Assembly: GCA_903910555.1 (NCBI GenBank)
Contig: CAIVZZ010000005.1
Span: 1 to 64,000 of the forward strand
From: an uncultured Gemmatimonadota bacterium
GTDB lineage: Bacteria; Gemmatimonadota; Gemmatimonadetes; Gemmatimonadales; Gemmatimonadaceae
Reading direction: 5' to 3'
Length of the DNA: 64,000 bases
The notes beneath the pieces were generated by a model. That model had not been told where the DNA came from. It was given only the letters and a program-made list of their open reading frames with translations, and searched no databases. Within the stretch, counting starts at the first letter, position 1; each line of letters opens with the position of its first letter. Positions 54,110 to 62,862 of the stretch are shown piece after piece. Both the position numbers and the translations under genes were made by a program.

Positions 54110-54907
54110 TCAGCGTGCGACATCCGCCTCTCGCATGAGCGTGCAGAATGTACGCAATTCGTCCGCGTTCAAATCCGAAACCGCCCAATATGCCATTCCA
54201 CCCGCGCTCCAGTTCGCGATCTGGAAACCGCGACGGGTCTCGAGATGCGGCGGAACGTTCGCGGCCGATTCTGATGGGTAGGTCAGCACGTTGATAATAT
54301 GCGCCCGGCGCTGGTATACGAGAGCCGCGACCGCTCGGTGACCAACGTAGTCGAGCCGTCCGCCGACGAGCGGAAACCCTTCGGACTCCAATCGCGGCAC
54401 TGCCGGCGAGAAATCGAGCTTGCCCGTGAACCATGGTTTGACGGTGTGCTGGTCGGTTGAGACGACATCTGTGAGATGCCCCAACTGCAGCGAGCGGACA
54501 TGCGCGGTGAGCATCGCTTCCGCCGTCTCGCCTGCGGATGGCGATGACGACGCGCGCGCGCCGATGCCGTACGCGACGCCGATCATTGCCACCACTGAAG
54601 CCGCGAGAGCCCACGCGCGATACGAGCGAGCCGTGCGGATCGTGCGTTCGCGCGCAGGGATCGGTTGCGACGGCTCGCGAATGCCGGCGACGATACGCTG
54701 GCGCAGCGCATTCGGCGCCTTGAGAGGCGGAAGGTGTTGACGCATCGATTCAACGGTGCTCAATAGAAGGGAATAATCGGCCGAGCACTGCTCGCAGCTC
54801 GCGAGATGCGCGGCGACTTCGAGCGCCTCTGCGGCGTCGAGCTCGCCGTCGATATACGCGCTGAGCCGGTCGAGGTACCACTCGTGCGTGTCGTCAGCTT
54901 GCATCAC
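54110..54907 (-). CDS. Anti-sigma factor with zinc finger
   Basis: LDRLSAYIDGELDAAEALEVAAHLASCEQCSADYSLL (HXXXCXXC), central TM. Confidence 0.9.
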   Translation of the reverse strand: MMQADDTHEWYLDRLSAYIDGELDAAEALEVAAHLASCEQCSADYSLLLSTVESMRQHLPPLKAPNALRQRIVAGIREPSQPIPARERTIRTARSYRAWALAASVVAMIGVAYGIGARASSSPSAGETAEAMLTAHVRSLQLGHLTDVVSTDQHTVKPWFTGKLDFSPAVPRLESEGFPLVGGRLDYVGHRAVAALVYQRRAHIINVLTYPSESAANVPPHLETRRGFQIANWSAGGMAYWAVSDLNADELRTFCTLMREADVAR

Positions 54908-59657: not shown

Positions 59658-59881
59658 CTGGGGAATGTGGAGAATTCCGGGTGCTCGTGTGGGGAAAGTC
59701 ACACATCTGTGTCCGGCGAGGGGCCGGGATCGCAAAAATACCCCTATTTGGTGACAGGGCGGGCCCTCTCATGGGTACTTGTAAATGAAGCACGGTTCAC
59801 GGGTTGCGGGCAGGTCGGCGGTGGCGTTCGACTCCCCAGCGGGATAATCTGCGGGAGACACCTCAGACCAATCGAGAGCCC

Positions 59882-60427
59882 TTGAACGAGATCGACCCTT
59901 CGGTGCCCATCAGGGCAAAAAATGGTGAAGAGAAAGCCTTCATCGAAATCGTGGATTTTTACTATCCGCGGTGCCTGCGGTTCGCGCGCAATATGCTCTC
60001 GAACGATCAGGACGCCGAAGAAGCAGTACAGGATGCGTTCGTGCGGGTGCACCACAGTTTCCCGCGATTTCGTGAAGATGCACGATTCGATCCGTGGCTG
60101 TTTCGGATTTTGGCGAACAGGTGCCGCACGCTGCTTTCACGGGGCCGACGACACCGCGCACTGATCGAGTATGGAGAAGTGCCAATAACGGCCGCGGCGC
60201 CGGCAGAGGAATACGGTGCCGACTGGGCTGAGGAAGTACGGGCGGTGCTGGATTCACTCCCGGCGGAGCAGCGGGAAGCGTTCTTGCTGCGGCATGTCGA
60301 GGATCTTTCATACGAAGACATTGCAGCGCTGACAGGTGTCCGCCTTTCTGCGTTGCGCATGCGGGTCAAGCGAGCGTGCGACACGTTGCGCGTCAGACTG
60401 ACCGAGGTAGAGCAACATGATCGATGA
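59882..60427 (+). CDS. ECF RNA polymerase sigma factor
   Basis: Probable TTG start; FARNMLSNDQDAEEAVQDAFVRVHHSFPRFREDARFDPWLFRILANRCRTLLSRGRR; region 4 LPAEQREAFLLRHVEDLSYEDIAALTGVRLSALRMRVKRA. Confidence 0.93.
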   Translation: MNEIDPSVPIRAKNGEEKAFIEIVDFYYPRCLRFARNMLSNDQDAEEAVQDAFVRVHHSFPRFREDARFDPWLFRILANRCRTLLSRGRRHRALIEYGEVPITAAAPAEEYGADWAEEVRAVLDSLPAEQREAFLLRHVEDLSYEDIAALTGVRLSALRMRVKRACDTLRVRLTEVEQHDR

Positions 60428-61028
60428 TACAGCTGAACGAGACGAACTGATTCAACGCGTGGCGCGGTCGCTGAGTCCGTTGCCGCCAAACGACACGCAT
60501 GCGCGGGCCAGGATTCTGGCCGCGGTGCGCGCACGCGCGGCGCATGCGCCAAAGCCGTGGTCGGTCGTATTCGACTGGATGCGGCAGCCGGCCTTCTCTG
60601 TTGCGTCCGCTGGATTGCTCGCGGCGGCGGCACTCGCGATCGGCTTCGTGACGCGCGGCGCGCTGTCGACGCTCGATATGCAGCCCAATGCGATTGCGTC
60701 GTCTGCGCCAGCCACAAACGTCACCGCGATTCCGGCTTCGAACGCGCCCGCAGCGGTACGCGCCGTGCCGGTTCCGATCACGTTCGACGCTCCCGGCGCG
60801 AAGAACGTCGCCATCGTCAGCGATTTCAACGACTGGGACAGCACCGCCGCGCCGCTCACGCGATTCGGCTCCAATGGACCCTGGACGGCAACGGTGAACG
60901 TCATGCCGGGCCGCCATCTCTATGCCTTCATGGTCGACGGCAAGCTCGTCGTCGATCCACGCGCGCCGCATGCGCACGATCTCGATTACGGAACCGATGC
61001 GTCCGTGCTGATGGTCAACACGCCATGA
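60417..61028 (+). CDS. Single-TM protein with C-terminal glycogen-binding-like (CBM48/E-set) domain, putative anti-sigma partner
   Basis: Overlaps sigma gene; TM SVASAGLLAAAALAIGFV; C-term ITFDAPGAKNVAIVSDFNDWDSTAAPLTRFGSNGPWTATVNVMPGRHLYAFMVDGKLVVDP. Confidence 0.8.
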   Translation: MIDDTAERDELIQRVARSLSPLPPNDTHARARILAAVRARAAHAPKPWSVVFDWMRQPAFSVASAGLLAAAALAIGFVTRGALSTLDMQPNAIASSAPATNVTAIPASNAPAAVRAVPVPITFDAPGAKNVAIVSDFNDWDSTAAPLTRFGSNGPWTATVNVMPGRHLYAFMVDGKLVVDPRAPHAHDLDYGTDASVLMVNTP

Positions 61029-61690
61029 AAAACAAAAACATGACGCGGTACGCCGCGTTTGTCGCAGCCGCGCTTGTCGCCGCGATCTCGGGCGCCGGTG
61101 CTCAGCAGGGCGTCCAGCCCGAACGCCGGATCACTGCAATCAGCGACGATGCCACGCGCAGCGTGGTGATCGAGCAGCTCACCCTCGCGAAAGAGAGCGG
61201 GCTCCCCGCCGGCGCGATGGAACCGCTGATGGCGAAGGCGATGGAAGGCGTCGCGAAAAAGGCGACGAGCAAGAGCATTCGCAGCGCCATGGACGCGCTG
61301 CAGAAGCGCCTGCGGAAAGCCAATGACCTTCTCGCGCCGTCCCCGACAGTCGACGAACTCTCCGCTGGTGCAGACGCGCTCTACGTCGGAGTCCCGGAAA
61401 GGACGCTGAAGCAGATGCGTCAGGCCGCACCGCGGCGTTCGATCGCGGTTGAACTCGGCGTGCTGACGGAACTCGTCGCACGCAGCGTTCCGCCGGCCAA
61501 GGCATCGAAGATGGTTCTGGACCTCATGGCGCGCGGGGCGACGGGCGCGCAACTTACGGCGATGAACACTGCCGTACAAAGCGACGTCGCCGCTGGACTG
61601 ACTCCGGAAGCAGCGCTGGACAGGCACGGGCGTGGCATCATGTCACTCCTTCCCCCGCCGTCTGCCGTGACTGGAGCCAATCATCGGTGA
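61025..61690 (+). CDS. Exported helical hypothetical protein
   Basis: MKNKNMTRYAAFVAAALVAAISGAGAQQ signal peptide; overlaps preceding stop; Ala/Met-rich helical body. Confidence 0.65.
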   Translation: MKNKNMTRYAAFVAAALVAAISGAGAQQGVQPERRITAISDDATRSVVIEQLTLAKESGLPAGAMEPLMAKAMEGVAKKATSKSIRSAMDALQKRLRKANDLLAPSPTVDELSAGADALYVGVPERTLKQMRQAAPRRSIAVELGVLTELVARSVPPAKASKMVLDLMARGATGAQLTAMNTAVQSDVAAGLTPEAALDRHGRGIMSLLPPPSAVTGANHR

Positions 61691-61707
61691 GGTCGTAAGG
61701 GCATGAG

Positions 61708-62862
61708 ATGACCGCCCGCGTTTCTGCGCTGATGTTGCTCGTCGCGATCTTAACAACGGATGCGGCGGGCGCGCAGTCAACGCGAGAGGTGCGGTTGGAT
61801 GCCGGCGCTGCGCAGGTCCAGCAGACCGGGCGTGACACGCGCGACGTTGCCGGAATCTTCGCCCTCAGTTGGCGCGAGAGCAACCCGCTCATAGCGACAC
61901 GGCTTTCCGCCGCGATCACGTCTGCCGGCGATAGCGCGTCGGCCGCTCAGCTCGCACTCGCGGCCGCGTGGCGCGCCTCCGAAAGCTCGCCGTGGCTGAC
62001 CGAAGGGGGCGTGTCGGCCGCCGCATTCGGCCAGACGATCTTCGCGCGAGGCGGCAGCTTCAGCGGATTCATCCGCGAGCGCCGCGCGATCGATGCGGGC
62101 GGCGTGTGGGTCGGCGCAGCGCTCGGCGGAACCTCGCGCGACAACGTTGCCAGTCACTCCACGGCGTTTGACGCAGGCGGCTGGTGGCGCATCGGTGACT
62201 TCGAGGCGTCAGCCTCGGTGACCCGGCTGCGCTCCGAGGACATTCCGCTGCTGCAGGCCGCCGAGCTCTTTCTATCCGGCGACGCGACGGTCTACGATCT
62301 CGTGGATGTCGCAACCGACCTGCATTACGAGCACGGCCCATTCTATATCGAGGCGAGCGAGACGTTCCGCAACGGCCTGCGTGCGACGAGCGCAAACCAG
62401 TCCGCGCTGTACATCTCCGCGGTGTACACATTCTCGCCGCGCTACTCGTTCATAATCGGCACGGGGTGGCTACTTGCCGATCCGGTGCGCGGCATCCCCG
62501 ATGCAACGGTCACGTCGGCGGCGATTCGTGTTGCGCTCGTTCCTCTCCGCGCGCCCACGCCGGCGGCTGAGTCCCGTGGCGCGGCGTTCGTATCGCTCTC
62601 CCCGAAGTCGAGCGGCGCGGTGCTAACGGTGCGTGTGGTCGCCGACGATGGCGCGTCGGTGGAAGTGGCGGGGAGCTTCTCCGCGTGGAAGCCGGTTCCT
62701 CTCGTGCGGATCAACGACGCGTGGGAAGCGGAGATCGCGCTGCCTCCGGGGAGCCATCGTGTGGCGGTGCGGATCAACGGCGGACCGTGGCAGGCACCGC
62801 GCGGAATGGCGCGCGTGAAGGACGACTACGGCGGCGCGGCCGGGCTGATCGTCGTTCCCTGA
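61708..62862 (+). CDS. Exported protein, probable outer-membrane barrel, with C-terminal CBM48/E-set domain
   Basis: Signal-like N-term MTARVSALMLLVAILTTDAAGAQ; amphipathic beta repeats; C-term VRVVADDGASVEVAGSFSAWKPVPLVRINDAWEAEIALPPGSHRVAVRINGGPWQAP. Confidence 0.7.
   Translation: MTARVSALMLLVAILTTDAAGAQSTREVRLDAGAAQVQQTGRDTRDVAGIFALSWRESNPLIATRLSAAITSAGDSASAAQLALAAAWRASESSPWLTEGGVSAAAFGQTIFARGGSFSGFIRERRAIDAGGVWVGAALGGTSRDNVASHSTAFDAGGWWRIGDFEASASVTRLRSEDIPLLQAAELFLSGDATVYDLVDVATDLHYEHGPFYIEASETFRNGLRATSANQSALYISAVYTFSPRYSFIIGTGWLLADPVRGIPDATVTSAAIRVALVPLRAPTPAAESRGAAFVSLSPKSSGAVLTVRVVADDGASVEVAGSFSAWKPVPLVRINDAWEAEIALPPGSHRVAVRINGGPWQAPRGMARVKDDYGGAAGLIVVP

Follow-up and report, generated by a model that had tools for sequence, protein, structure and literature searches.

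ECF sigma factor systems are a major bacterial means of envelope sensing. The class I anti-sigma domain (ASDI) is N-terminal and cytoplasmic and often carries an Hx3Cx2C motif. ASDIs without zinc are common (about 44%), and about 79% of Gemmatimonadetes ECFs reportedly have a class I anti-sigma as partner (PMC7406223); literature searches found no study of the signals that such Gemmatimonadetes pairs perceive. We have analysed a four-gene ECF locus in a 64,000-nucleotide stretch of an uncultured Gemmatimonadota genome (contig CAIVZZ010000005.1, positions 1–64,000; hereafter the window). FecA/FecR, RseA/RseB and RsgI are its nearest counterparts in logic, but its parts are unrelated to theirs, and by family tests it belongs with none of them.

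In Clostridium thermocellum, RsgI is a single-pass anti-sigma that bears an extracytoplasmic module of the carbohydrate-binding type and has a paired sigma factor, SigI (PMC4711584, PMC12203970). The window module appears to share this plan. However, SigI is not an ECF factor, the RsgI modules are CBM3, PA14 or GH10, and neither a helical partner nor an outer-membrane barrel is present; ligand binding has been demonstrated for RsgI/SigI and would be a prediction for the window module. No window protein gave a Pfam RsgI match, and the partner is an ECF sigma, not SigI. FecI/FecR/FecA and PupI/PupR/PupB (PMC9249621) resemble the module in combining an ECF sigma, an inner-membrane regulator and a barrel, encoded by the regulated operon, whose periplasmic domain might touch the regulator. 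The window barrel differs in being 14-stranded and OmpG-like, its extra domain sits at the C-terminus and shares its family with the anti-sigma domain, and a helical protein is added; no FecR domain or TonB plug was matched by Pfam in the window proteins. RpoE/RseA/RseB and AlgU/MucA/MucB likewise encode a sigma, a membrane anti-sigma and a secreted periplasmic protein in one operon (PMC8545111), but the periplasmic protein of the window is all-α and unrelated by Pfam, and its anti-sigma carries an E-set domain. That domain belongs to the sequence family of the AMPK β glycogen-binding domain (CBM48), with Pfam scores over the cut-off, and differs from it in being extracytoplasmic, in its fusion to an anti-sigma or a barrel and, in the anti-sigma, in the loss of most glycogen contacts. 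We found no description of CBM48 or AMPK1_CBM joined with an ECF anti-sigma in the open-access literature.

The four genes and their products

The four open reading frames occupy 59882–62862 on the + strand, as do all features below unless marked otherwise. The first two genes overlap by 11 nt, the second and third by 4 nt, and 17 nt separate the third from the fourth; because of these overlaps and the short gap we read them as one transcript with translational coupling. The first protein (59882–60427, TTG start) matches Pfam Sigma70_r2 (PF04542, 1.7e-15) and Sigma70_r4_2 (PF08281, 5.7e-15) over cut-off and has no further domain, which identifies it as an ECF (group IV) sigma factor; TIGR02937 scored 95 bits (cut-off 42.9). 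A promoter-like site, GGTGGC-N19-TAATCT (59820–59850), ends 31 nt before its start codon. The pattern GGTRGC-N19-TAA, a candidate promoter that departs from the classic ECF consensus, was found 5′ of the sigma gene in every one of the 17 module-bearing genus genomes (as the variant GATRGC in G236). The site is the sole match in the window genome at 0–1 mismatches, and G173, a genus genome without the module, has zero. Across the genus the pattern gave 12 further matches, versus 18 for a reversed-pattern control. Since the pattern thus shows no excess beyond the sites upstream of the sigma genes, the data suggest that the sigma regulates only its own operon, with the reservation that diverged sites would escape a pattern search. 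Transcription of its own operon by the sigma is among the best-supported parts of our model.

The second protein (60417–61028) has a single hydrophobic segment, residues 60–78 (60594–60650; Kyte–Doolittle mean 2.11 across 19 residues). Residues 117–200 (60765–61016) match AMPK1_CBM (PF16561) with 41.7 bits (cut-off 26.8; E = 1.4e-10) and CBM_48 (PF02922) with E = 1.1e-7; by sequence the domain is related to PDB entries 1z0m, 1z0n and 4y0g, and phmmer aligned it to the AMPK β2 CBM at 5.6e-6. The N-terminus showed neither an Hx3Cx2C motif nor a Pfam match, in agreement with an earlier, sequence-only reading that described a transmembrane protein with no evident zinc finger. However, two relatives (L156 and L163) start with a zf-HC2 finger over cut-off; a hydrophobic segment comes next, and then the CBM domain. 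Because these CBM proteins begin with such a finger, an anti-sigma role is supported, and the assignment of the membrane protein as anti-sigma to the overlapping sigma gene is, as a prediction, also among the best-supported elements of the model. Its CBM48 domain is expected to lie in the periplasm. The same reading had proposed an ECF sigma/anti-sigma envelope-signalling cluster with CBM48/E-set domains in two proteins; the Pfam cut-offs and the zf-HC2 relatives support this. Elsewhere in the window, an ORF at 54110–54904 (− strand), starting ...LSAYIDGELDAAEALEV, resembles by eye the start of another anti-sigma factor.

The third protein (61025–61690) had been called an exported helical protein, and a signal peptide (by inspection) and an all-α AF2 model of helical hairpins (21-sequence alignment, pLDDT 89.8, pTM 0.79) agree with this. 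A [GS]-[VL]-P motif is present in at least three of the helical turns. Neither the window protein nor any of ten homologues matched Pfam over a curated cut-off, and a Foldseek search of the model against the PDB gave nothing at E ≤ 0.001, returning mostly designed repeats. No Pfam model covers this family, and the modelled fold has no significant counterpart in the PDB. A second member, short at 166 residues (G000:C2:87891–88388; L257:3793–4293; E = 1e-13 with the wide profile) has no sigma or CBM gene beside it; its neighbours are diguanylate-cyclase-like and tyrosine recombinase (XerC/XerD-like) genes.

The fourth protein (61708–62862) was modelled by AF2 as 14 long strands (residues 25–278; 61780–62541), a disordered linker and a C-terminal β domain, with no plug. 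Foldseek matched the barrel to the porins OmpF and OmpG (E about 1e-6); the best by TM-score was OmpG (4ctd; 0.72 normalised to the target, rmsd 4.6). With a signal peptide and a closed amphipathic barrel, the protein is predicted to be an outer-membrane β-barrel, membrane insertion included. Residues 313–383 (62644–62856) match PF16561 with 27.2 bits (4.7e-6), just above the 26.8 cut-off, as anticipated for a barrel ending in a divergent CBM48-like domain. By the curated cut-off both domains thus belong to the CBM48/AMPK1_CBM family, and a search of the 3.2 Mb window genome found no PF16561 match besides them. Because an even strand number (14) puts both barrel ends in the periplasm, the second domain is expected there, and by this modelled topology neither domain should sit on the cell surface. 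In the genome G039 (L136:5220–7157, − strand) the helical protein and the barrel form a single 646-residue ORF. We have set this fusion aside as evidence of contact, since a recent read-through or an error in the sequence could explain it: an internal signal-peptide-like segment remains, and in G089 (L258), a congener of G039, the genes are separate.

Conservation, block loss and spread of the module

The membrane-protein, helical and barrel genes are contiguous and in the same order in 17/18 congeneric genomes, so a chance reading is ruled out; the sigma gene lies upstream of them wherever examined in the genus. The module is flanked by a divergent aldehyde dehydrogenase gene beyond the sigma and by class-V aminotransferase and EVE-domain genes downstream. 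In the 18th genome (G173, 97% complete) the aldehyde dehydrogenase and aminotransferase genes adjoin, with a 30-codon sigma remnant between them, from which we conclude that the genes of the cassette were lost together. A locus from a family of the same class (L259) has the four genes in the same order; other families have the helical gene last, after sigma, anti-sigma and barrel. The strong synteny agrees with the proposed cluster. Some congeners have a second sigma and CBM anti-sigma pair (L113:1130–2219, − strand; L114:4932–6021, + strand) without helical or barrel genes, adjoining genes that by eye look like hslV/hslU.

In a survey of 300 Gemmatimonadota genomes, 183 had both PF16561 and the helical family, 6 and 8 had one of the two, and 103 had neither (the Fisher test of this table ignores phylogeny). 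The copy numbers of the two correlate (Spearman 0.74), and of 58 helical genes sampled, at least 50 have a CBM domain no more than 2.5 kb away. For a wider scan each GTDB species was represented by one genome; the query was the anti-sigma alignment, followed by profiles built from Gemmatimonadota loci only (E-values scaled to a million sequences). It gave 80 loci, 23 of them with a sigma–CBM pair, and 22 of these 23 have the helical gene; it was also found in 3 of the 57 loci without the pair, all three on contigs that end near the CBM gene. Sigma, CBM protein and helical protein occur together in three Nitrospira-group genomes (with an extra CBM protein), Atribacteria, Desantisbacteria and a Clostridia MAG. 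Myxococcales and Eisenbacteria have all four genes, Balneolales the last three on a cut contig, and Bipolaricaulota a sigma–CBM pair with a weak helical match (8e-4) that was not recovered by the Gemmatimonadota-only profiles. Single MAG contigs may be mis-binned, and the Nitrospira cases are the safest. From these sequence data the helical gene appears to be a near-constant partner of the sigma–CBM pair across phyla. The barrel is missing or unseen in several non-Gemmatimonadota loci (L163, L170), and given such loci it may be an accessory component. One Nitrospira locus (L147:2806–3192) encodes, between the anti-sigma and helical genes, a 128-residue CBM48 protein that by inspection carries a lipobox-like signal; it possibly stands in for the barrel domain.

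The constancy of the helical gene, even where no barrel is seen, is what would be expected of an envelope-stress system of the RseA/RseB kind, in which the helical protein, as a periplasmic co-anti-sigma, would protect the anti-sigma against proteolysis and the response would have the barrel as just one of its targets. RseB and MucB bind RseA and MucA in this manner and block site-1 cleavage, an effect that ends when a lipid signal displaces them (PMC8545111). However, the helical protein gave no MucB/RseB Pfam match, its all-α model, for which the PDB returned no match at that threshold of E ≤ 0.001, is of a different fold class, and the barrel, usual in Gemmatimonadota, bears a domain of the anti-sigma's own family. 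We regard this explanation as unlikely.

Possible ligands of the CBM48-like domains

We examined six positions that we take to be the glycogen contacts of AMPK β1: W100, K126, W133, L146, T148 and N150. The window anti-sigma has W, A, L, Y, T and A there and the window barrel domain W, A, W, Y, G and A; among W100, K126, W133 and N150 the anti-sigma retains W100 alone. Neither window domain thus shows the full set of contact residues of AMPK-type glycogen binding. In both domain sets W100 is conserved almost everywhere and K126 almost nowhere: the barrel domains have W100 in 39/39, W133 in 36/39 and K126 in 1/39, and the anti-sigma domains have K126 in 3/57, W133 in 35/57 and N150 in 29/57. 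W133 and N150 are lost in the anti-sigma of the window genus but retained in many deep relatives, including Nitrospira and Myxococcales. Of the 18 genus genomes, 16 encode no GH13 enzyme, the window genome among them, and the conserved neighbourhood holds no sugar genes. Because key contact residues are lost and GH13 is so widely absent, an α-glucan signal is unlikely in this genome; the sensing of a glucan, one of the options offered by the sequence-only reading, is not supported, starch or glycogen sensing is disfavoured, and the domains probably no longer bind starch.

A saccharide other than an α-glucan is possible as the signal, and the retention of both tryptophans in nearly all barrel domains could reflect a saccharide ligand. 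This would fit a carbohydrate sensor of the RsgI kind, in which the anti-sigma, by means of its CBM48-like domain, would bind a periplasmic or imported oligosaccharide admitted by the barrel, and the sigma would then induce that uptake barrel. The CBM48 fold in two proteins of the operon, the W133 and N150 of the deep relatives, the superposition on OmpG and the detection of polysaccharides by RsgI anti-sigmas with extracellular CBMs (PMC4711584) are consistent with such a sensor, but the near-universal loss of K126, the substitutions in the window genus and the lack of GH13 and neighbouring sugar genes make it unlikely. That the domains are inert spacers, in an ordinary sigma/anti-sigma pair beside two unrelated secreted proteins, accords with the lack of biochemical data on any member in our literature searches but is very improbable, given that domain identity is kept in very distant taxa and twice per operon, that the four genes were lost together and that CBM and helical genes co-occur.

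A proposed trans-envelope relay

We favour, tentatively and at somewhat less than an even chance, an autoregulated envelope-signalling operon that works as a protein-based trans-envelope relay. The analysis establishes which genes and domains are present, their synteny and loss as a block, the barrel-type model and the conserved upstream site. The N-terminal ∼57 residues of the anti-sigma would hold the sigma at the inner membrane, while its periplasmic CBM48-like domain would be read by partners from the operon: the secreted helical protein, and the barrel through its own C-terminal, periplasmic CBM48-like domain. If the barrel or the helical protein changed, these contacts would be altered, leaving the anti-sigma open to regulated proteolysis; the sigma thus released would direct the synthesis of more barrel and helical protein. 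Sigma binding, periplasmic contacts, proteolysis and induction are steps that we infer. The E-set domains would more likely serve protein contacts than glycogen, and we prefer sensing of the partner barrel, which had been suggested earlier, to sensing of a glucan.

It is conceivable, if rather doubtful, that the module represents an undescribed trans-envelope class found in several phyla, with CBM48-family domains on both membranes, a bridge formed by a new family of helical-hairpin proteins and an ECF sigma that targets its own operon only. The module supplies a defined parts list for envelope sensing: a sensor domain that resembles a sugar binder with lost contacts, an unnamed helical family that crosses phyla, and a candidate promoter as read-out.
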